Shown piece after piece: positions 7,680-24,097 of a DNA stretch of 24,382 nt. Position numbers and translations under genes: made by a program. The stretch lies in the IMG/VR virus record IMGVR_UViG_3300022209_000016, positions 1 through 24,382 of that record; one strand, written 5' to 3'. This DNA is from a virus. The notes beneath the pieces were generated by a model. It had not been told where the DNA came from, searched no databases, and was given only the letters and a program-made list of their open reading frames with translations. The stretch's first letter is position 1; every line of letters begins with the position of its first letter.

Positions 7680-7969
7680 GAGTAAAGAAGAAGACCCCAA
7701 CGTACGAGGTCGAGATCCTCGAAGACCCGGTGAACATCGGCGGGCTCCAGGGGCGCCCAGGCGACTACATCCTCAAGGGCACAGACGGCTCGAAGGCCGT
7801 CATGCCGCGGGAAGATCTGATGCGCGACTACGTACCACATGATCTGCACGCCCAGGGGGGCATCTGGGGCAACCAGGAACCTCGCTGGGATGATGACACC
7901 TTGGTCCCGGGCGTCATGCCCGAGAGAGACCACCGCGATCAAGAGGTGCTCGATGTCAGCCCGGAGTAG
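7676..7969 (+). CDS. Hypothetical protein of KOW-like style (97 aa)
   Basis: TTG 7676 overlaps the previous stop as TTGA, with GGAGGT 7 nt upstream. Residues about 10-50 (TYEVEILEDPVNIGGLQGRPGDYILKGTDGSKAVMPREDLMRDY) follow a pattern I recall in small phage proteins: a strand, then GDYIxKGxDG, then a helix. I know no function for it. The C-terminus is acidic and ends with TAG at 7967-7969, inside the start of the peptidase gene. Confidence 0.7.
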   Translation: MRVKKKTPTYEVEILEDPVNIGGLQGRPGDYILKGTDGSKAVMPREDLMRDYVPHDLHAQGGIWGNQEPRWDDDTLVPGVMPERDHRDQEVLDVSPE

Positions 7970-8348
7970 AATCAAGCTGTCTGAGCACTTCTGGCTGCAC
8001 GAGTTCCACTCGTACGCGAACAACGGGCAACTCCTTGAGAAGTACCCGACCAGATGGCAGGGAACTGTCCTGATTCCACTGGTTTACGACCTGGAGACCA
8101 TGCGGGCTGCGTATTATGCCATCCCGCCCATCGGGGAGAAACGCATCAAGATCTTCTCTTGCTACAGATCCCCCGCTCGAAACGTTGCTGTCGGCGGCAA
8201 ACCCGGTTCGCGTCACATTACCGGGGATGCCGTTGACAAAGGCGTCTACACCAAAACCGGACAACTCGTTGACAATCAACAGGTTGTGAAGGTTGACCGC
8301 AAGCTTATCTCTGATGGCCTGATCCGCGACGGTGGATCGGGATGGTAG
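7953..8348 (+). CDS. Peptidase M15-type endolysin, interrupted by in-frame TAG (131 aa before the stop)
   Basis: ATG 7953 (AGAGGTG upstream) starts a protein whose residues 66-95, FSCYRSPARNVAVGG...SRHITGDAVD, match the M15 D,D-carboxypeptidase / L-Ala-D-Glu endopeptidase signature SxHxxGxAxD. His88 and Asp95 are the first two zinc ligands. Enzymes of this family cut peptidoglycan peptides and commonly serve as phage endolysins. The frame ends at TAG 8346-8348 after GGSGW, before the third zinc ligand. The missing part (PGSGTTHYDHGAGGRRW) continues in the same frame after the TAG. The 131-residue product should therefore be inactive unless the amber is read through or is a mutation. Confidence 0.85.
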   Translation: MSARSRIKLSEHFWLHEFHSYANNGQLLEKYPTRWQGTVLIPLVYDLETMRAAYYAIPPIGEKRIKIFSCYRSPARNVAVGGKPGSRHITGDAVDKGVYTKTGQLVDNQQVVKVDRKLISDGLIRDGGSGW

Positions 8349-8530: not shown

Positions 8531-8602
8531 GTCTGTTGACACACATCCTGCTTATCCCGTACTGCCCCACATAGCTTAGGGTTGTGGGGGAGATCTCCCA
8601 AG

Positions 8603-9295
8603 TTGGCGAAAGTTCAGCCGTTACTGGATCCACGGACCATCGAAGTCATCGTGGATCGACTCGTCCTGTGCGAGTCGCCTCGTTCTATTGCCTCCAATCT
8701 GGGCATGGCAGAGAAGGCGATTCGTGAGATCCAAAAAGAGAACGAAGGCGAGATCTGGCGTCTCAGGGCGTCATGGCAGGACTGGGTCTCAGACGCTGAG
8801 CCACTGGCCAGCGACTTCAACCGCATCGTTTTCATGGGAGCCATCGCCCGGCGAGCCTATAAAACCGACCGTCTGAGAGAGGCAACCGACGCACTCAAGG
8901 CCATAGGTGATGTCATGGCCAAGGTGAAGAAGTCCTCTGCTGCTATAGCTGACCTCAATATCCTCGACAGAATCCACAAAGGCGAGTGGGACGAAGCGAT
9001 GCGGCACCTGGAGAACGCAGAGGCCGCCCGTCGTGAGAACCCCATGCTGGAGGACAGAACGGCTCAGCTCGGCGTCATGGGCGAGGGCGACCATACGCCC
9101 ACGTACAAGAAGGACAAGCACGCAGACGAAGCTGAAGAGATCGTCGCGAAGGGGAAGAAGCGTGAGCAGGTACGGCGGAAAACCAAAGCCAAAACCAAAA
9201 CCAAAGCCTCGATGAGCCTGGTCGAGGGTTCCAGGGGCAAGGACGAACGCAAGCGGGACAACAAAGGCCTCCAAGAGATCCCAGAGGTTGACTGA
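8603..9295 (+). CDS. terS: Putative terminase small subunit (230 aa)
   Basis: It lies immediately before the large terminase gene (TGATG overlap). The N-terminus (TIEVIVDRLVLCESPRSIASNLGMAEKAIREIQKEN) has the spacing of a helix-turn-helix, as expected for the subunit that recognises phage DNA for packaging. A long helical middle (KTDRLREATDALKAIGDVMAKVKKSSAAI) could oligomerise. The tail is very basic (KTKAKTKTKAS, encoded by an AAAACC/AAAGCC mini-repeat near 9178-9210). I chose TTG 8603, 10 nt after GGGGAG; TTG 8582 is the longer alternative with a weaker site. The small-subunit role is inferred from position, the helix-turn-helix and size. Confidence 0.65.
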   Translation: MAKVQPLLDPRTIEVIVDRLVLCESPRSIASNLGMAEKAIREIQKENEGEIWRLRASWQDWVSDAEPLASDFNRIVFMGAIARRAYKTDRLREATDALKAIGDVMAKVKKSSAAIADLNILDRIHKGEWDEAMRHLENAEAARRENPMLEDRTAQLGVMGEGDHTPTYKKDKHADEAEEIVAKGKKREQVRRKTKAKTKTKASMSLVEGSRGKDERKRDNKGLQEIPEVD

Positions 9296-10038
9296 TGGCT
9301 TTCACTGGCGCGCACCTGACAGACCAAGGCAGCCATGCCAGTGAACTCGATGCGTGGCTGTACAAGAAGCTCAACATCGCGAAGCCAGGATATGAGCCTG
9401 ACGCTCTGACCGCTGCTCGCATCTGGAAACACTGTCGCGACAACGAAGACTTTTTCATCTTCAACTTTGTCCGCACACGTGACGAACACGATGCCGAGTC
9501 ACCAGTCAAACCGTTCCCGGACTGGCCTTACCTGCGAGAGATCCTGCATCACATACGCAGCTACCCGATCACAGCAATCGCCAAGTCGCGTCAGATGACC
9601 GTGACCTGGCTTCTCACCGCGCATGCAATCTGGCATGCACGCTTTTGGCCACACAGACTCATTTTCATCCAGTCCAAGAAAGAAGAAGACGCAGCCAACC
9701 TGGTGTTCAACCAGGACTGGGTCAACGCTCGTGGCAGCTTTATCGAGCTGAACCTGCCGAAGTTCTTACGCATGCGAGGACTCAAGGCGAAGTATGGACA
9801 ACTCTTCTACCCAAACGGATCGCATATCTGGGGCATCCCGCAGGGAAGCCATATCATCCGCTCGTACACTGCGAGTGAGATCATCATGGATGAAGCTGCA
9901 TTCCAACCCCAATTTGAAGAGGCATACACAGCTGCATTGGCAACGGTAAAGGGTGGCGGCCGACTGGTCGCGTGTTCCACGGCTTTGGCAAACACATTCT
10001 TCGCAAAGATCTGTGGACAGGATGAGAACGATGACTGA
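9295..10038 (+). CDS. terL: Terminase large subunit, ATPase half (247 aa)
   Basis: This is the packaging motor's ATPase domain. Residues about 85-125 contain PITAIAKSRQMTVTWLLTAHAIW, the Walker A-like motif of a TerL family that lacks the usual GKS/T, then IFIQSKKEEDA. Later come GIPQGSHIIRSYTASEIIMDEAAFQ (Walker B, DE) and GGGRLVACSTA (motif III). The protein stops at TGA 10036-10038, just after NTFFAKICGQDENDD, where a normal TerL runs on into its nuclease domain. That domain is encoded by the gene at 10422. Together the halves total 544 residues, a normal TerL length, so nothing appears lost. Confidence 0.9.
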   Translation: MAFTGAHLTDQGSHASELDAWLYKKLNIAKPGYEPDALTAARIWKHCRDNEDFFIFNFVRTRDEHDAESPVKPFPDWPYLREILHHIRSYPITAIAKSRQMTVTWLLTAHAIWHARFWPHRLIFIQSKKEEDAANLVFNQDWVNARGSFIELNLPKFLRMRGLKAKYGQLFYPNGSHIWGIPQGSHIIRSYTASEIIMDEAAFQPQFEEAYTAALATVKGGGRLVACSTALANTFFAKICGQDENDD

Positions 10039-10049
10039 GGAGGATTATC

Positions 10050-10421
10050 TTGGGTGACATGGAATTTCTGATAGGCAATGGCCTGGGCTTCGTGCTCAAG
10101 CGGTTTGCTCCAAACTTTTCGAACAAGGCCATCCCGGTGGCGCTGTTCGTGTGGAACATGTTCTACCACATGTTGAAGACGTACGACCCGACGTTCCAAG
10201 GCATGCCCGTCGAGGGTGCCTCGATGATGACTGCAAGCATGGGCGATCCAGTCATGGTGCAGGTTGGGTTCTTCAGCGTCATTGGCGGTCTGTTCCAAAC
10301 AGCAGCAGTCGAGACAGCGAAACAGATGGCTGCACACGCAGTCGGCAAGAACACGTTTGCTCAGTTCCTGCTGCCAGCGATCAACGACAAGATCGGTCTT
10401 GTCAAAACGAAAAGACGCTAG
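10050..10421 (+). CDS. Unrelated 123-aa gene inserted between the two terminase halves
   Basis: The TTG start at 10050 has GAGGAGG 6 nt upstream, one of the best Shine-Dalgarno sites here; ATG 10059 is an in-frame alternative. The product is hydrophobic/amphipathic (KAIPVALFVWNMFYHMLKTY, later VQVGFFSVIGGLFQTAAVETAKQMAAHAVGKNTFAQFL) and ends KTKRR. It has no homing-endonuclease, intein or transposase motif. Its pattern reminds me of small membrane-associated or holin-like proteins of aquatic phages, but that is a weak impression. The stop TAG abuts the ATG of the nuclease half in the same frame. Confidence 0.7.
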   Translation: MGDMEFLIGNGLGFVLKRFAPNFSNKAIPVALFVWNMFYHMLKTYDPTFQGMPVEGASMMTASMGDPVMVQVGFFSVIGGLFQTAAVETAKQMAAHAVGKNTFAQFLLPAINDKIGLVKTKRR

Positions 10422-11315
10422 ATGAAGGGCATGTCGTCATACGAGACACAAGACCGTGTGCACGTGGTGATGTGCCATTACTCGACCATGCATGACCCCG
10501 ACACTCCAGAGGGTCGGGAATGGGTCGCAGCCGAGTCTATGGGGTATCCCGGTGGAATAGATGGCACTCAGTGGCGTCGTGAAATGGAAATTGATTTCAC
10601 GGTGCGCGGGTCATCACTTGTCTTCAAGGACTGGCGAGAAAGATCTGACAATGTCGTTGTCGATCCTAGAACCATTCCCGACCACTGGATCATTCACTTT
10701 GGGTACGACTACGGGTATCGAGAGCCGTTTGCAGGCCTGTTCATTGCCTACAACGGTCGCTTCGAGGCGTTTGTCGTGGATGAGATTTACGAGAAGGGTC
10801 TGCCTGTTACAGAGCATGCACGTCTGATCAAGCAGAGCCCGTACTGGGAACGTGCCAGGTTCAAAGTCGGGGACCCATCGATCTGGCACAAAACGCAGCA
10901 TGTGGGTCACCGAGTGACCTCTGTTGGCGACCTCTTGGCGCAGCAGGGCGTTCATCTACAGAAGGGTCGTAAGGAGCCAGGAATAGATGTGGCATTTCGA
11001 GACATGCTGCTTGGTACGTACTGGAAGAACAAGGAGGCACCCAAGCTCAAAATCTTTCGCACGTGTCACAACCTGATCCGTGAACTGCAACGGCTCAAGT
11101 TCCGTGACTACATCACGAAGGTCGCAGCTGAACGCAGTGACATGATGGAAGAGATTGCGTCCAAGAAGACGCACGCATGGGACTGCATGAAGTACGTGAT
11201 GATGGGGCATCCGATCGTTGAACCAGACGATCTGCCACCACCAGAGGGCTCACTCGAACAGGTGAAGAGACAACTCAAGGCGTTGAGACGCAAACAGAAA
11301 TACTTGCTGCAATGA
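10422..11315 (+). CDS. terL: Terminase large subunit, nuclease half (297 aa)
   Basis: The start ATG 10422 directly follows TAG 10419-10421; there is no good Shine-Dalgarno, so translation probably relies on coupling. The product begins MKGMSSYETQDRVHVVMCHYS, the segment that normally follows motif III in TerL, and continues through WRREMEIDF. The RNase H-like nuclease has acidic residues in HFGYDYGYREPFAG, KVGDPSIW and HAWDCMKYVMMG. This domain cuts concatemeric DNA during packaging. The C-terminus is Lys/Arg-rich. It would have to act with the separate ATPase subunit. Confidence 0.85.
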   Translation: MKGMSSYETQDRVHVVMCHYSTMHDPDTPEGREWVAAESMGYPGGIDGTQWRREMEIDFTVRGSSLVFKDWRERSDNVVVDPRTIPDHWIIHFGYDYGYREPFAGLFIAYNGRFEAFVVDEIYEKGLPVTEHARLIKQSPYWERARFKVGDPSIWHKTQHVGHRVTSVGDLLAQQGVHLQKGRKEPGIDVAFRDMLLGTYWKNKEAPKLKIFRTCHNLIRELQRLKFRDYITKVAAERSDMMEEIASKKTHAWDCMKYVMMGHPIVEPDDLPPPEGSLEQVKRQLKALRRKQKYLLQ

Positions 11316-11563
11316 TCATCACGCTGTGTGACGGATGCCAGAAAGACCTGAAGGATACGATATACGCGAAGGTGCGCGTTCGAGGGCGTGAGTTGGATCT
11401 CTGCAAGTCGAGAAACGAACCCAACGATGGGGGATGTCTCAAGTTCTTCCCTGACTACGAACGTCAGGTTGACGACCTTGCAGACAAAACAGACAAAGAC
11501 ATCGACGCGAAGCACGCGGAGATCGAAGCCCACTTTTGGGAACAGGTGAGACGTGGCCGCTAG
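11312..11563 (+). CDS. Small Cys-containing protein between terminase and portal (83 aa)
   Basis: ATG 11312 forms ATGA with the terminase stop. CDGCQKDL near residue 6 and further Cys at LCKS and GGCLKFF form a CxxC...C...C pattern, likely a zinc site. The second half is acidic and helical (DDLADKTDKDIDAKHAEIEAHFWEQV). It overlaps the portal gene start by 11 nt. Function unknown. Confidence 0.75.
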   Translation: MIITLCDGCQKDLKDTIYAKVRVRGRELDLCKSRNEPNDGGCLKFFPDYERQVDDLADKTDKDIDAKHAEIEAHFWEQVRRGR

Positions 11564-13553
11564 AAAAAAGAAAACGTCCAAGAAGCCCGTTGTCCACGCA
11601 AAGCGGACTGGTGACGAGATCGTCTCAGAGGCTGTGCGGCAGACACGGAAAACGCGCCGCGACAAACACGTTGAGGCCGACATCTGGCGCAACAGGCTCA
11701 CCCTGTCGCAACAGGTGTACGACCCGTACCTCGCCACGTTCCAGCGCAACAGAGAGTTTTACGTTGGGCAACAGTGGGACGACGGCGAGATGCTGCGCAG
11801 CGAGGAGACCGAAGAGAGCCTGCTGACCGTCAATCGGCTGCTCCCGTCGCTCGCAACGCAGAACTCCCAGATCATGTGGAAGCTTCCCTGGTTCAGAGTC
11901 ATTCCACGTAGAGCACTCGGCGGCATTGGCCTGGAGCAGGCGAAGGTCGCAGAGATGACCTTGAACCACATCATGCAACACCCCAAAAACAACGTGCTGC
12001 TTCAGGCACGCCTAACAGTGTTGGCAGCCCATATGGGCTACGGTGCGCTCAAAGTCTCATACACCCCAGATGAGGGTGTCCCACTGGACAATGCCGAAAA
12101 GGAGGAGGTATGGGGTCAGGTCATCACTGAGGATAACGGCGCGGGGGACCTCGTAACGGATGTTCTCGGTGGCGTCCCTTGGACTGACCCTGAAACTGGT
12201 GAGATGCGTCGAAAGGGGGACCTCCTCCTAATCGACACCAGGGACCCAGCGGCGCTCTACCGCATTGACTGGGTTGACTGGATGGACTTGAGGCACGATC
12301 CAGAGGGCGGGAACCAGTTCGAAGATCACGGCTGGATTGCACAGCGCATGTCTTGGAGGTATGACGAGTTCATGGAGAATGAACTCTTCACGGAAAAAGA
12401 CGGCATCGAGTCGGCTGCCAACAGTATTGCGAACACCGGGATCATGCATCACACGGGTGGTGCAACAGCGACCAGGAAAATGCGTTTCGGTCGCGGCTCC
12501 GTCAGTCAAAGCGCTGACCAAGGCGTTGATACAGAAGCCGCGAAGGACATGATGCGGTTCCACGGATGGCAGATTCACGACTTCGTGAATGGCAAAGTCA
12601 TCTACATGGTGGACGACTGGGACCGCATTGTCGGCAAGGACTCGATCCCCAGGTGGATCGACCACTCGCCGTACTCGTTCGCAAAGCTGCACGAGGTGCT
12701 CGGTGAGTGGATGCCATACACCGAGATGGAGGCTGGACGACCACTCATCCGCAGCTACAACAAGACACGGAGCCAGGTTCTCAATCACCGCAGACGCTTC
12801 AACCGCAAGTACGAAGTACTCAAAGACTTCGTGACGTTTGACGAACTGGAGAAGCTCAAGGACCCAGCAGACGGAACGATCGTCTTTGTCGAGCAGGCAG
12901 GGTCGATTGTTCCCATCCAGGACGCACCGCTTGACCAAGCGTTGTACAAGGATCTTGAGCTGGACATCCGTGACATGTCCGAGATCTTTGGCGCGACCCC
13001 CGAAGGGCGCGGTTCTTCTGCGTCCAAAACGGCCACGCAAGCAGCCATCATCGAACAAAGAGGAAGCTCTCGCGAAGACGACAAGCGGACAATCATTGGC
13101 AACGCTTTGTCAAAGGCAGCGGGGAAACTACTCAATGCTCTCCAAGCAAACTTGGACAAAAAGATGGCAGTGAACATCGTTGGTCCGTCAGGGCAAGCGT
13201 TTGAGCGTCACGTGAGTCGCGTACAGCTGACCGGCGACTACGACGTGAAGGTTGAGATCAGCGACATGCAGCCCAACGACTTCGCGACAGAGGAAGCCAG
13301 GCTGCTGAAGTTCGCACAGGTCATGGGTCCTGTTGCGTTCCGCAGTCAGCGTTGGATGTCACGGCTCGTACGCAACATGAACATGGACGACCCAGACATG
13401 GTCAATGAGCTTGTTGCGCTGTTCGAGCAGGCTGCGACCGAAGAGTTGCAGCAGCAAAGACAAGAGGCTGGTGGACCACCAGAACAGTCTGGGACACCAA
13501 GCCAAGGCAGGCAAGAAGGCCGGAACGTCCGATCCATCGGGGGAACCTCGTGA
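11553..13553 (+). CDS. Portal protein (666 aa)
   Basis: The start is GTG 11553 with AGGTGAG just upstream. The protein forms the dodecameric ring at the capsid vertex through which DNA enters. Supporting features are REFYVGQQWDD followed by NRLLPSLATQNSQIM near residues 70-105, a typical portal opening. Near residues 480-550 there is FGATPEGRGSSASKTATQAAI...REDDKRTIIGNALSKAAG, the long helical region with a conserved ATQAAxxEQRG-type stretch. The C-terminus is Gln/Gly-rich (EELQQQRQEAGG). Position between terminase and capsid genes agrees. Size is within the range of podovirus-like portals. Confidence 0.9.
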   Translation: MAARKKKTSKKPVVHAKRTGDEIVSEAVRQTRKTRRDKHVEADIWRNRLTLSQQVYDPYLATFQRNREFYVGQQWDDGEMLRSEETEESLLTVNRLLPSLATQNSQIMWKLPWFRVIPRRALGGIGLEQAKVAEMTLNHIMQHPKNNVLLQARLTVLAAHMGYGALKVSYTPDEGVPLDNAEKEEVWGQVITEDNGAGDLVTDVLGGVPWTDPETGEMRRKGDLLLIDTRDPAALYRIDWVDWMDLRHDPEGGNQFEDHGWIAQRMSWRYDEFMENELFTEKDGIESAANSIANTGIMHHTGGATATRKMRFGRGSVSQSADQGVDTEAAKDMMRFHGWQIHDFVNGKVIYMVDDWDRIVGKDSIPRWIDHSPYSFAKLHEVLGEWMPYTEMEAGRPLIRSYNKTRSQVLNHRRRFNRKYEVLKDFVTFDELEKLKDPADGTIVFVEQAGSIVPIQDAPLDQALYKDLELDIRDMSEIFGATPEGRGSSASKTATQAAIIEQRGSSREDDKRTIIGNALSKAAGKLLNALQANLDKKMAVNIVGPSGQAFERHVSRVQLTGDYDVKVEISDMQPNDFATEEARLLKFAQVMGPVAFRSQRWMSRLVRNMNMDDPDMVNELVALFEQAATEELQQQRQEAGGPPEQSGTPSQGRQEGRNVRSIGGTS

Positions 13554-15962: not shown

Positions 15963-17057
15963 ATGGCAGCGACGACACTGACTCGTGTCTACGACTCTTT
16001 GTTGACGCTGACGCTTGACAACTACAGGGCAAAGCTCGCGGACCAGATTCACACATCTGTGCCGCTGTTGTACTGGTTGGAGAAGCGTGGGCGTAACGCA
16101 AATGGCGGCGGCATGAGAATGGATGAGGGTGGCACGTTGATTCGTGTTCCCGTCATCAACCAAAAGAACGAGAACGCAGGATCGTACGAGCGGTACGACC
16201 AGTTGCCTCTCGCACCAACAGAAGAGTTCACGACAGCCTTCGAGACGTGGTCCGAGTTGGCCACGACCATCGGTATCAGCCGTCGTGAGATCCGTGAGAA
16301 CTCGGGAGCCTCTCGCATTCTGAGCATCCTGACTCAGAAGATGAAGGTTGCCGAGATGGGCCTGCGCGAAGAGTTGGAGACCCAACTCATCCAGGGCGAG
16401 CTTCCCGCAGTCGGTTCCGCGTTCATCCGTGGAAACAGCGGGAAGGACATGGTGCCTCTGACCGTGTTGATCGACCCGACGCCAGCGACGGGGACGATTC
16501 ACAACGTGAACTCGGCCAACGAAGCCTGGTGGAGAAACCGCATCAGCGACCGTGCTGGTATCGCTGAATCCTGGCAGACAGATTTCCTGCCTGCTCTGAA
16601 CCAGCTGTACAACGACTGTTCGAAGGGCAACACGACCGACTTCCCGGATATGCTGCTCAGCGACCAGTACGTCTTCGAGGCCCACGAAGCGCGTTTGTTC
16701 TCGCTGCAGCGCTACGGCGGGTTTGACGACGAGAAGTCCGCGTCGGTCGGCTTCCAGTCCTTGAAGCACAAGGGTGCTTTGTGGATGTGGTCCGAACTGG
16801 TGCCAGGAGTCAATCCGGGTGCAGAGGACGTTCGTGCGAACATCACGACCGCTGCTGACAGCACCATCTACCTCATCAACTCGAACTGGCTGGAACTCGT
16901 CGTGGACAAAGAGTCCAACTTCGTGAACACACCGTTCGAGGAGCCCGTGAACCAGACTGCGATCTTCTCCAAGATCCTGTTCATGGGCCAGCTGATGGTC
17001 ACCCAACGTCGTAAGCACGGTGTCATGTTCGACATCGATGCGACGCAGTGGACATAA
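15963..17057 (+). CDS. Major capsid protein (364 aa)
   Basis: ATG 15963 follows AAGGAG. The N-terminus (LTRVYDSLLTLTLDNYRAKLADQIHTSVPLLYWL) and the run EGGTLIRVPVINQKN...SYERYDQLPL, plus the later central WWRNRISDRAG, are the pattern I recall in major capsid proteins of uncultured aquatic phages with HK97 fold. The C-terminal KILFMGQLMVTQRRKHGVMFDIDA also fits. Length and place after the scaffold agree. It forms the icosahedral shell. No protease cleavage site is evident, and the N-terminus lacks a delta domain. Confidence 0.85.
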   Translation: MAATTLTRVYDSLLTLTLDNYRAKLADQIHTSVPLLYWLEKRGRNANGGGMRMDEGGTLIRVPVINQKNENAGSYERYDQLPLAPTEEFTTAFETWSELATTIGISRREIRENSGASRILSILTQKMKVAEMGLREELETQLIQGELPAVGSAFIRGNSGKDMVPLTVLIDPTPATGTIHNVNSANEAWWRNRISDRAGIAESWQTDFLPALNQLYNDCSKGNTTDFPDMLLSDQYVFEAHEARLFSLQRYGGFDDEKSASVGFQSLKHKGALWMWSELVPGVNPGAEDVRANITTAADSTIYLINSNWLELVVDKESNFVNTPFEEPVNQTAIFSKILFMGQLMVTQRRKHGVMFDIDATQWT

Positions 17058-17071
17058 GGGAGGTGTTGTAA

Positions 17072-17497
17072 ATGCAAATCCAAGGACCACACACTGGCCC
17101 AGGGTTGGCGAATACGCACAACCCGACGTACGAAGCGATCTGGATCCACTGCAAAGCTGGTGCTGCGATCACTCGTGGCTTGGCGGTCGAGTACGACTTG
17201 GCCTCTACCGGTGACGAGTTGGGGTTCCAGGTCGCACTCGCTGGGGCAGCAACCGATGGAGTCTGTGGAGTTGCTGCCGAGACGAAGGCGGCTGACGAGC
17301 TGATCCTCGTTCAGTGCTATGGCATCTGTGACTTCGCAACGACAGACGGCACTGTTGCAGACGCTGGACAGTGCGATTCCAATGCATCGGGTGTCATTTC
17401 CGCCGCTGCGGTGGCGGATGTGATGGCGAACTTTGCGTACGCCATTGATAACGATGTTGGCACTGTCGGCAAGATCTTCATCAAGAACTGCATGTAA
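17072..17497 (+). CDS. Decoration-type capsid protein, copy 1 (141 aa)
   Basis: ATG 17072 has GGAGGTG 8 nt upstream. Small, Ala/Gly/Asp-rich, no Lys/Arg clusters, just after the major capsid gene: the profile of head decoration proteins (compare DUF2190-type). Its start MQIQGPHTGPG and internal LVQCYGI...DGTV recur in the next gene, so the two are tandem paralogues. The end KIFIKNCM matches the other copy's KILVKCM. It presumably binds the capsid exterior to stabilise it. Confidence 0.7.
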   Translation: MQIQGPHTGPGLANTHNPTYEAIWIHCKAGAAITRGLAVEYDLASTGDELGFQVALAGAATDGVCGVAAETKAADELILVQCYGICDFATTDGTVADAGQCDSNASGVISAAAVADVMANFAYAIDNDVGTVGKIFIKNCM

Positions 17498-17504
17498 GTG
17501 GCCT

Positions 17505-17526
17505 GGGGGTGGGGCAACCCACCCCC
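17505..17526 (+). promoter_or_regulatory. Perfect 9-bp hairpin with GCAA tetraloop between decoration genes
   Basis: GGGGGTGGG (17505-17513), loop GCAA (17514-17517), CCCACCCCC (17518-17526). A GNRA tetraloop on an all-GC stem is very stable. No U run follows, so it is probably an mRNA-stability or partial-attenuation element that tunes the second copy's level. The next gene's Shine-Dalgarno (GGAGG at 17535-17539) lies just past it. Confidence 0.6.
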
Positions 17527-17545
17527 TCCCGAATGGAGGATTGAA

Positions 17546-18043
17546 GTGCAGATTCAAGGGCCACACACAGGTCCAGGTGAACGCGGTGTCACCGCGAACG
17601 AAACGTTTGAAGCAGTGTGGATTCGCATGAAAGCAAACGGTGTGCAGTCGTTTCGTAAAGGCGAGCCAGTTGATTACTACAGCACAACCGCTGGGGCTCT
17701 CCTTGGTGTTGAGGCCTCACGATCCACACAGGGCAACAACCGTGTTGCAGGCATTGCTTACGAAGACGCGGCTGCTGGCCAGTACTTCATGGTTCAGTGT
17801 TACGGAATAATCGTTGCCGACACGGACGGATCGGTCAACGCTGGCAATGCGGTTCAAGCGGCTGGAGATGTCACGAACCGTGACGTTGAACAGGCAAATA
17901 CCGTGCAGATTGGTACCGTTGCCGGTGCTGTATCTACGGCGACTGGGAACGGTGTCGTCAGCATTATCGGTGCAGCAATCGAGGCTGACAGTGCACAACC
18001 CAATGGGCGGCAGGGGGCGAAGATTCTCGTCAAATGCATGTAG
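17546..18043 (+). CDS. Decoration-type capsid protein, copy 2 (165 aa)
   Basis: GTG 17546 has GGAGG 6 nt upstream and begins MQIQGPHTGPGE, aligning with copy 1, so the in-frame GTG at 17498 is not the start. Shared features with copy 1: MVQCYGI, an acidic DGSVNAG turn, hydrophobic Ala/Gly segments, C-terminal KILVKCM. It is 24 residues longer. TAG at 18041-18043 falls at the same aligned end as copy 1's TAA, showing that TAG works as a stop in this genome. Either the two copies form a mixed decoration layer or one is an alternative. Confidence 0.7.
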   Translation: MQIQGPHTGPGERGVTANETFEAVWIRMKANGVQSFRKGEPVDYYSTTAGALLGVEASRSTQGNNRVAGIAYEDAAAGQYFMVQCYGIIVADTDGSVNAGNAVQAAGDVTNRDVEQANTVQIGTVAGAVSTATGNGVVSIIGAAIEADSAQPNGRQGAKILVKCM

Positions 18044-21260: not shown

Positions 21261-21578
21261 ATGGCTGGAACATTTACTCCGAAGCTGTTGGCTGAGGGTC
21301 AGGTGGCCAACTCGAAGACAGCGATGTACACGGTGCCTGGGGCTACGTCTGCGTACGTACGAACCATGAAGTTCTACAACACCAACGTGGCGACACAAAC
21401 CATCAACCTGTACATCAGCACCGGAACAAGCAGGCAGACATACAAGTTCGAGCTGGCAACAGATGAGTCCGCAGAGGTGGATGACAGGCTGACGCTTGAG
21501 ACTGGGGACCTGATCGAGGCTGACACGACGACTGCGACAGCTGTGGACTTCACGGTCCATGGGGTGGAGGAGACATGA
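21261..21578 (+). CDS. Putative tail/fibre accessory protein (105 aa)
   Basis: ATG 21261 with GGGTGG 6 nt upstream. The product MAGTFTPKLLAEGQVANSKTAMYTVPGATSAYVRTMKFYNTNVATQTINLYI... alternates strands and turns, consistent with a beta-sandwich. No Cys. It ends in a 4-nt overlap with the fibre gene. The TPKLLAxGQVAxSKTxxYTVP opening is typical of small fibre-associated phage proteins in my recollection. Exact role unknown. Confidence 0.65.
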   Translation: MAGTFTPKLLAEGQVANSKTAMYTVPGATSAYVRTMKFYNTNVATQTINLYISTGTSRQTYKFELATDESAEVDDRLTLETGDLIEADTTTATAVDFTVHGVEET

Positions 21579-24097
21579 GCCTCAAAATCTACGGAACAGA
21601 CGGCGTACTCAAGTCGTCCACGGGTGGTGCTGGGCAGTCGAACACCGGCAGCAACATCGGCACAGATGGAGTCGGTGTCTTTGACCAGAAGGTCGGTGCT
21701 GATCTCCAGTTCAGAAACCTCGCGTCTCTCAACCCAGAGTTCCTGGACATCGCACTCGACGCTGGCGACAACGACATCGACTTCACGATGCTCGGGTCAC
21801 CAACCGTCAAGATCCTGGCGCAGAAGGGCTCTGCCGGTACGATCAATCCTGGCGACGTTGTGTACATGAGCGGCTTTGATTCTGGCGATGGCGTCATCGA
21901 GGTCGAGCTTGCGGATTCGGACAACTCGTCTGCGATGCCGTCGATCGGAATTGCCGAAGACACGATCGACCAGACAACCACGGGGTCTGTCATCGTTGTC
22001 GGGCCAGCCACGGTCAACACGACTGGTGAGTCTGTCGGAGATGGGATCTACGTTGACACCACGCCTGGGACATGGACGACAACAAGGCCGACAGGGACCA
22101 CGACAGCGATCCAGCGTCTTGGAACCATCTCGAAGATCGGTGCATCTGGCACGGTGTTCGTTGCTGGTGCCTTGCGCTCGAACGATGTGCCCAACCTGGA
22201 AGACGCGAAGTTCTGGGTTGGGAATGCGTCGAACGTTGCAACTGCCGTGTCGATGGGTGGCGAGGCCACGATGGCCAACGACGGCACAGTGACCGTTGCT
22301 GACGGCGCAGACGGCACGGCCATCCACGACGACGTGGCAGGTGAGATCGCAGCTGTCACCCTGAAGGCATCGCCCGTATCGGGTGATTTCATCTTGATCG
22401 AGGACTCGGCGGCTGCCAACGCGAAGAAACGCATCACCATCGGCACTCTCCCGGCAGGCGGAGAGATTAACGACCTGGCTGGCGATGGGATCAACGGGAT
22501 TGCCGACGATCAGATTGCGATTGGGTCGGGAGCCAGCACGGCTGCGTACCACACGTTGCCCAACGGTGCCGTTTCGTATGCTACCGGCACGAACACCGTC
22601 TCGCAGGCTGCTCTCGCGAATCTCTCGGACGTAACGGGCACGACCGGTACTGGCTCGACCGTTGTGTTTGATACGAGTCCGACCATCGTGACGCCGACGA
22701 TCGCGAGCTTTGTGAATGCGACGCATAATCACGAGGCAGCTGCGGGCGGGAACACCCTGGCCAGTGCTGCGACACCGACCGCGATTCACGATGACGTTGC
22801 ATCGGAGATCAGTGCGGTTGCCTTGAAGGCATCTCCGGTCAGCGGGGACTTCTTGCTGATTGAAGACAGTGCGGCAGGCAATGCCAAGAAGCGCATCACG
22901 ATTGGGACACTTCCAGCAGGGGGTGAAATCAATGATCTGGCCGGTGACGGTATTAATGGTATTGCTGACAACCAGCTTGCTGTCGGCACTGGCGCTTCTA
23001 CTGCTGGATACCAGACGCTTCCTACGTCGCAGGCACTTGCGTTTAATGGCACCAGCTTCACGCACGCGACGTGGGCACAGCTCAACAAGGCCACCAGTGA
23101 TATTGCGGATATTACCACCAAGTCACACACGTCGCTAACGGATGTCGGGACCAACACGCACGCGCAGATCGACACGCACATCGCGCTGACGAACGAGCAC
23201 ATCGATTGGACGGGTGCTGGTGCCGGGACGATCCACACCGACAACTACATCGAGGGTGGTGCGGGCACAGACACGACCGCAATCCACGATAATACGGCGA
23301 GTGAGATTTCTGCGATCACGGTGAAGGCCAGTCCGGTGAGCGGTGACTTCCTACTCATCGAAGACAGTGCAGCGGGTAATGTGAAGAAGCACATCACTGT
23401 TGGGTCGCTGCCCGCAGGGAGTGAGATCAATGACCTGGCTGGCGATGGTATTTCTGGGATTGCTGACAATCAACTTGCTGTTGGCACTGGTGCTGGCACT
23501 GCGGCCTACGCGACGCTATCCACAGCTGGTGCTGTTGCGTTCAACGGGACCGCGTTCAGTCAAGCCGCGTCCACGGACCTGAGCGATACAGCAAGCATTG
23601 TGTTGCTCACGGGTTCACAGACCCTGACCAGCAAGACGTTGACGGCACCGATTATCACTACGGATCAGACGCTCACGACAGCCGGGCAGATTACGGTTGA
23701 TACGACCGCCACTGATGGGCAGTTCGTTTATTACGATGCGGCTGAGCAGGTATTGACTCCACATCGGTGGTGTGGTGTTCCGTTCACAGATCCAGCGACA
23801 CTTGATGAAAACATCATGATCATGCTGGAGTACGACATCACAATTCAGGAGGTCAAAGCTTGTGGGCGCGGAGGAACCAGTGTCGCTTGGGAGCTTCGGC
23901 ATTCGACTGATGCTGATTCGGCAGGAACTCTGATTGAGGGGAACACGACGACAACGAACGGGCTGGTGGACAGTCACACGACGCTTACATCTGCGTCAGT
24001 CAGCGCGGGCGAGATCATCTGGGTCGAACTCGATACGGTGACTGGGACTGTGGACGACTTCACAATCCAGTTCCGCTACAGAATAGACCGCTCATGA
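21575..24097 (+). CDS. Tail fibre protein with three domain repeats (840 aa)
   Basis: ATG 21575 overlaps the preceding stop (ATGA). Three repeats of about 82 residues each contain KASPVSGDF(I/L)LIEDSAA...KK(R/H)IT(I/V)G, then INDLAGDGI(N/S)GIAD. Repeats of this kind form trimeric beta-helical fibre shafts. Downstream, LTSKTLTAPIIT is a standard fibre-shaft motif. The C-terminal about 130 residues (from about WCGVPFTDPATLDENIMIMLEYDITI) form a distinct beta-rich tip with a TLDENIMI-type turn, probably the receptor-binding head. No depolymerase or intramolecular chaperone motif is apparent. Confidence 0.85.
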   Translation: MSLKIYGTDGVLKSSTGGAGQSNTGSNIGTDGVGVFDQKVGADLQFRNLASLNPEFLDIALDAGDNDIDFTMLGSPTVKILAQKGSAGTINPGDVVYMSGFDSGDGVIEVELADSDNSSAMPSIGIAEDTIDQTTTGSVIVVGPATVNTTGESVGDGIYVDTTPGTWTTTRPTGTTTAIQRLGTISKIGASGTVFVAGALRSNDVPNLEDAKFWVGNASNVATAVSMGGEATMANDGTVTVADGADGTAIHDDVAGEIAAVTLKASPVSGDFILIEDSAAANAKKRITIGTLPAGGEINDLAGDGINGIADDQIAIGSGASTAAYHTLPNGAVSYATGTNTVSQAALANLSDVTGTTGTGSTVVFDTSPTIVTPTIASFVNATHNHEAAAGGNTLASAATPTAIHDDVASEISAVALKASPVSGDFLLIEDSAAGNAKKRITIGTLPAGGEINDLAGDGINGIADNQLAVGTGASTAGYQTLPTSQALAFNGTSFTHATWAQLNKATSDIADITTKSHTSLTDVGTNTHAQIDTHIALTNEHIDWTGAGAGTIHTDNYIEGGAGTDTTAIHDNTASEISAITVKASPVSGDFLLIEDSAAGNVKKHITVGSLPAGSEINDLAGDGISGIADNQLAVGTGAGTAAYATLSTAGAVAFNGTAFSQAASTDLSDTASIVLLTGSQTLTSKTLTAPIITTDQTLTTAGQITVDTTATDGQFVYYDAAEQVLTPHRWCGVPFTDPATLDENIMIMLEYDITIQEVKACGRGGTSVAWELRHSTDADSAGTLIEGNTTTTNGLVDSHTTLTSASVSAGEIIWVELDTVTGTVDDFTIQFRYRIDRS
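22316..23521 (+). repeat. Three diverged domain repeats within the fibre gene
   Basis: Repeats begin at 22316, 22778 and 23276 (offsets 462 and 498 bp), each with about 245 bp of recognisable similarity at the protein level. Comparing 48 codons of copies 1 and 2 (from 22364 and 22826) by eye, about 34 differ synonymously and only 2 change the residue. The repeats are therefore far more alike as protein than as DNA. Confidence 0.85.

Follow-up and report, generated by a model that had tools for sequence, protein, structure and literature searches.

The window analyzed here, a stretch of 24,382 bases from an IMG/VR virus record, carries a large terminase (TerL) in two pieces within a plus-strand block of packaging genes. 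A probable small-terminase-like gene of 237 aa (8582–9295, +), whose product has no family match and whose identity is assigned by position only, lies 5' of the gene for the TerL ATPase half (9295–10038, +, 247 aa) and overlaps its start codon with its own stop (TGATG). The ATPase gene ends in a TGA (10036–10038, +) placed directly after ATPase motif III, and this stop overlaps the Shine-Dalgarno sequence GAGGAGG (10037–10043, +) of an intervening orphan gene of 123 aa (10050–10421, +), six bases ahead of its TTG start at 10050. The TAG of the orphan gene (10419–10421) directly abuts the ATG at 10422 of the gene for the TerL nuclease half (10422–11315, +, 297 aa), whose stop is overlapped (ATGA) by the start of a small CxxC-containing gene (11312–11563, +, 83 aa) located between TerL and the portal gene. 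The ATPase, 123-aa, and nuclease genes are in tandem and translationally coupled. Gene order, coordinates, and lengths (247 + 123 + 297 aa, the two halves summing to 544), as well as the Shine-Dalgarno sequence, are as the initial annotation had described them.

The surrounding genes provide the context expected for a TerL, with a P22-type portal protein of 666 aa (11553–13553, +; PF16510, 1.3e-11) and a major capsid protein of 364 aa (15963–17057, +; phrog_9953, 3.7e-42) encoded downstream, the window's own small terminase (TerS) being assigned by position only. A PF03592 TerS gene adjoins the ATPase gene in the relative L206, and reversed-order relatives (see below) carry such a gene at the position beside the ATPase gene, matching the placement of 8582–9295. 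Just upstream of the packaging genes, the window encodes an M15-family endolysin-like protein (7839–8348; PF08291, 1.5e-7; phrog_894). After the capsid gene, two adjacent ORFs of 141 and 181 aa (17072–18043) have the motif QIQGPHTGPG in common and are alike in their later segments, which suggests that the gene for a small structural protein was duplicated in tandem, and farther downstream an 840-aa protein (21575–24097) contains at least three imperfect repeats of GEINDLAGDGI(N/S)GIADxQ(I/L)A and is tail-fibre-like.

Both halves match TerL families, in agreement with their original reading. The ATPase half matches phrog_2 (3.6e-13), and its confident AlphaFold model (pLDDT 88.9, pTM 0.86) has T4 gp17 (3cpe, E 4e-15) as best match in the PDB. 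It is a P-loop ATPase with a deviant Walker-A-type motif (K97-S-R99-Q), a Walker B D199-E200, and the motif III STA, in which K97, D199, and E200 are invariant across 38 aligned sequences. Fold, Walker B DE, and motif III are those of T4 gp17 (3cpe, 3ezk, 2o0h); however, gp17 is one polypeptide, whereas the window protein has no canonical GKT, carries its lysine first in the motif, and ends at around gp17 residue 298, its profile aligning with gp17 residues 103–298. The nuclease half matches phrog_5653 (2.1e-9) and phrog_2 (5.3e-9), and its profile matches the SPP1 TerL nuclease 2wbn (4.5e-8). Its AlphaFold model is good (pLDDT 85.9, pTM 0.70) and resembles D6E TerL (5.9e-9) and the P22 nuclease (1.5e-8). 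This half is RNase H-like, with the putative catalytic residues D96, D151, and H251/D254; D96 and D151 are invariant, and H251 nearly so, in 40 aligned sequences. It shares this fold and the conserved acids with the nuclease domains of SPP1 G2P (2wbn), P22 gp2 (4dkw), and D6E TerL (5oe8), from which it differs in being encoded by its own gene, one that also carries the linker.

Exact-pattern scans and phage records provided no close relatives of the window halves. Patterns built from one sequence each (nuclease half, capsid protein, or 123-aa insert) returned no matches, and the ATPase half alone, used as a pattern, yielded one distant intact TerL in viral contigs and none in genome contigs. 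The family was found by a degenerate motif search (A4), based on an ATPase-half fragment alignment to which two hand-written variant rows were added to loosen the pattern; these rows served pattern choice only, and matches were confirmed by tblastn against the window ATPase sequence. This search yielded 80 viral contigs at 43–56% identity and three genome contigs, and further family members came from a second scan built around an intact relative. Because the search patterns were confined to the ATPase half, they are not biased towards split genes at the expense of intact ones. Once identical sequences were removed, the family set comprised 97 distinct sequences including the window (about 96 relatives), all of them records of linear contigs, among which no complete or cultured phage was found. 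The window is one of the most divergent members, with about 38–40% identity to its nearest relatives across both halves.

Across this set, the two TerL domains are encoded by separate genes in 80 sequences (the window and 79 further ones), TerL is intact in five, and twelve have no clear nuclease gene, counts which also answer the question, raised in the initial annotation, of whether relatives retain an intact gene. Most of the twelve resemble types with reversed gene order in which the contig ends just upstream, and partial nuclease genes are visible at some of these contig ends; for two (L254 and L258), a contig end is a poor explanation. The latter, an Acidobacteriota MAG contig (QHYE01000107.1), carries a chromosomal ATPase-half gene, and no nuclease-half gene was found in its genome record. 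As a control, outgroup TerLs, i.e. families returned by searches with distant TerL alignments and nearly all intact, were handled alike and were full length in 70/72 cases when found via the ATPase and in 70/72 when found via the nuclease. The corresponding family ORFs were full length in only 2/75 (untruncated ATPase) and 2/69 (nuclease), the remaining 73/75 and 67/69 being short. Two T4-like outgroup contigs (L024 and L030) also have short ATPase ORFs, of 286–288 aa. A phrog_2 search of 30 related records gave one match each in 29, at the family ATPase gene, and a nuclease-profile search of 40 records gave one match each in 30; no second TerL was seen in the 30 related records, which are linear contigs of unproven completeness. 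Since dozens of independent metagenomes yield this two-gene layout, an assembly chimera at the window junction is very unlikely.

Among the 80 split pairs, the nuclease gene lies downstream of the ATPase gene in 58 and upstream in 22. The reversed-order contigs L206, L218, and L251 illustrate the latter arrangement, with the nuclease gene followed by two or three genes, including a conserved one of unknown function, then by a TerS-type gene, and finally by the ATPase gene. In nearly all contigs with reversed order, a gene for this conserved protein (~190–215 aa; L206:8703–9266) separates the nuclease gene from the TerS gene; the protein was considered as a second nuclease, for which profile comparison gave no support.

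Despite this variation in layout, the split point itself is identical across the family. ATPase genes end soon after motif III, typically with SSAxPGxF and a short tail, and nuclease genes begin with MxG[IL] shortly ahead of HYSADP; in the window, the end of the ATPase half (STALANTFFAKICGQDENDD*) and the start of the nuclease half (MKGMSSYETQDRVHVVMCHYS) both agree with this pattern. An intact relative of 525 aa (L032), related to both halves, aligns straight through the split point. The window halves cover adjacent, non-overlapping stretches of phrog_2 (256–414 and 439–594 of 807), so that nothing substantial is missing from TerL. The initial proposal of a cut between domains without loss therefore holds with respect to loss, but the cut is not exactly at the boundary between ATPase and nuclease domains. 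Because it falls just past motif III, the nuclease polypeptide carries at its N-terminus the linker and probably ATPase subdomain II as well. For T4 gp17, we take subdomain II to consist of residues 1–58 and 314–360; with these limits, the cut would separate subdomain I from subdomain II, the remainder being part of the nuclease chain.

In contrast to the split point, the content of the slot between the two genes is variable. Where the nuclease gene lies downstream, the spacing ranges from overlaps of 1–7 nt to gaps of about 1.3 kb, and gap contents differ among relatives, consisting mostly of small unrelated ORFs; in one case (L239:3384–3818), the gap holds an HNH endonuclease gene (phrog_826, 1e-45). 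For the 123-aa gene of the window, searches of Pfam, PHROGs, phages, IMG/VR patterns, and the PDB gave no significant match, and comparison with every ORF of at least 45 aa in the related loci found no relative. Its codon-position GC (0.54/0.37/0.72) is similar to that of its neighbours. The inserted protein had been described as hydrophobic, which is correct to a moderate degree (GRAVY 0.32), but its best 19-residue Kyte-Doolittle mean (1.54) is under the usual membrane cut-off, and with weak hydrophobicity and no relatives, the suggested membrane or lysis role finds no support in these data; the endolysin-like gene at 7839–8348 lies close by. Judging from sequence comparison, the 123-aa gene is probably a lineage-specific passenger that settled between already separate genes.

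Both halves are under purifying selection, with median dN/dS of 0.10 for the ATPase half and 0.18 for the nuclease half across 40 non-independent pairs of related loci; as the window has no close relative, these figures come from relatives and do not include its own halves. In a joint tree of both halves, whose root is weakly resolved and whose outgroup branch is long, the reversed gene order forms one clade (100/99). One intact gene, L188, nests among split genes, and a split clade excluding it was rejected (p-AU 8e-8), so L188 looks like a re-fusion. The other four intact sequences, L255, L260, L261, and L262, may lie outside all split genes, a placement with a likelihood slightly above that of the free tree, so that the test does not reject a single fission (p-AU 0.57). 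With L188 nested and the other intact genes placeable outside, the tree can be accounted for by one fission, a single change of gene order, and one re-fusion. We do not claim that the halves originate from two TerL families (a T4-like ATPase and an SPP1/P22-like nuclease), given that some TerLs related to both halves are intact (L032, L188, L255, and L262).

The split, its conservation, the catalytic residues, the folds, the purifying selection in relatives, and the lack of a second TerL in the records searched are all computed observations, and we conclude that the window very probably encodes a naturally two-gene large terminase, derived from an ancient single cut after motif III, the subunits of which assemble in trans. 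The physical assembly and the motor function of the halves are the parts that we infer. Under this scenario, a single cut just after motif III would have divided terL in the common ancestor of a broad clade of tailed phages from the environment, giving one gene for the ATPase and another for the linker plus nuclease, each with its own start and stop and both retained. Most likely, the two proteins associate at the portal vertex and together reconstitute a normal TerL motor in trans, with DNA translocation presumably performed by the ATPase subunit and concatemer cutting by the nuclease subunit. The separated genes would then have drifted apart as small unrelated genes gathered between them (the 123-aa orphan in the case of the window), with the nuclease gene coming to lie upstream of the ATPase gene in one sub-clade. 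The two complementary TerL halves are confirmed, and the earlier suggestion that they would need to work in trans is supported. More tentatively, the nuclease might be a dissociable partner, in a ratio to the ATPase ring that may differ from one to one, although we lean against this version; if true, translocation would be uncoupled from cutting, and the covalent ATPase-nuclease tether would not be needed for DNA packaging.

A stricter functional separation, in which the ATPase alone would act as a phi29-like motor and the nuclease as a separate, transiently recruited cutter, appears unlikely. The genes are indeed separate, sometimes kilobases apart and sometimes reversed, and the phi29 packaging ATPase gp16 offers a precedent for a packaging motor whose chain has no active nuclease, its nuclease domain being only vestigial (PMC7672431); the window family differs from gp16 in keeping an active-looking nuclease in its own gene. 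The nuclease chain, however, keeps a ~60-residue segment between motif III and the nuclease (compare the intact L032), and the ATPase half stops before gp17 subdomain II (limits as assumed above), so that it probably needs the nuclease partner to complete its domain.

A two-gene terminase of ancient origin also accounts for the window better than a recent event in this genome. The initial annotation had read the locus as a TerL gene split by a foreign insertion, in which case the 123-aa gene would have recently interrupted an intact terL, with the result that the packaging gene is now either broken or a pair of parts that work in trans. The window layout alone would fit, given that the halves amount to a normal TerL length and cover phrog_2 without overlap. 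This reading is nonetheless largely contradicted, and we regard it as very improbable: the split is ancient and clade-wide, occurring in the 79 other distinct sequences, many of which have no insert (the genes overlapping by 1–7 nt) or quite different, unrelated inserts, and some of which have the nuclease upstream, and the catalytic residues are intact in both halves.

Equally improbable is a self-splicing group I or II intron, or an intein, between the halves, from which a full TerL would emerge after splicing. Good documentation exists for terL genes split by introns, and their splicing has been shown in Jug phages (PMC12363816) and in Shewanella phage KASIA (PMC8541194), which resemble the window in having a terL that is discontinuous on the DNA, its parts separated by small genes, and the HNH endonuclease gene in the gap of L239 would fit as well. 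Unlike in these phages, however, each piece here is a complete gene, and the pieces may overlap, leaving no intron space in many relatives, or be reversed, as in the 22 sequences with an upstream nuclease. No Rfam match was found up to E = 1 in window 9295–11315, nor any at the gathering threshold in eight related gap-bearing loci, and the halves begin and end close to the junction, with no intein-sized or split-intein extension; the earlier statement that the window has no intron or homing-endonuclease signature is thus borne out. Least probable of all is the production of a fused TerL through programmed frameshifting or readthrough of a stop codon at the junction, for which the 1–7 nt overlaps in several relatives and the in-frame ORFs of L253 (1–1677), parted by a single TAG directly before the nuclease ATG, could speak, but which is unworkable in reversed-order relatives and in the window, where the gap is 383 nt, the frame differs, and stops intervene, making it a minority mechanism at best. 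Reversed order and overlapping genes exclude splicing, frameshifting, and readthrough alike as a general rescue.

In the open-access literature searched, neither a TerL stably encoded by two genes nor a reversed order of the two has been described. Some actinophage annotation schemes have separate names for the terminase ATPase domain and nuclease domain, so isolated split-TerL cases may have been noticed earlier. TerL serves as a marker gene for tailed phages and is regarded as one motor with two domains. A clade that stably encodes it in two genes, even in reversed order, would represent a natural test of the need for the tether in translocation and of the coupling between cutting and packaging. 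Since none of the halves tested reached the Pfam curated cut-off or matched NCBIfam, marker-gene pipelines may overlook these phages or label their terL genes broken. An undivided counterpart is found in MW202803 (Podoviridae sp. ct52p938), whose major capsid and portal proteins are related to those of the window: its gene order (packaging gene, TerL, small gene, portal, capsid) is similar, including a small gene ahead of the portal in the same place as the 83-aa gene of the window, but its TerL is, unlike that of the window, one intact gene of 560 aa.
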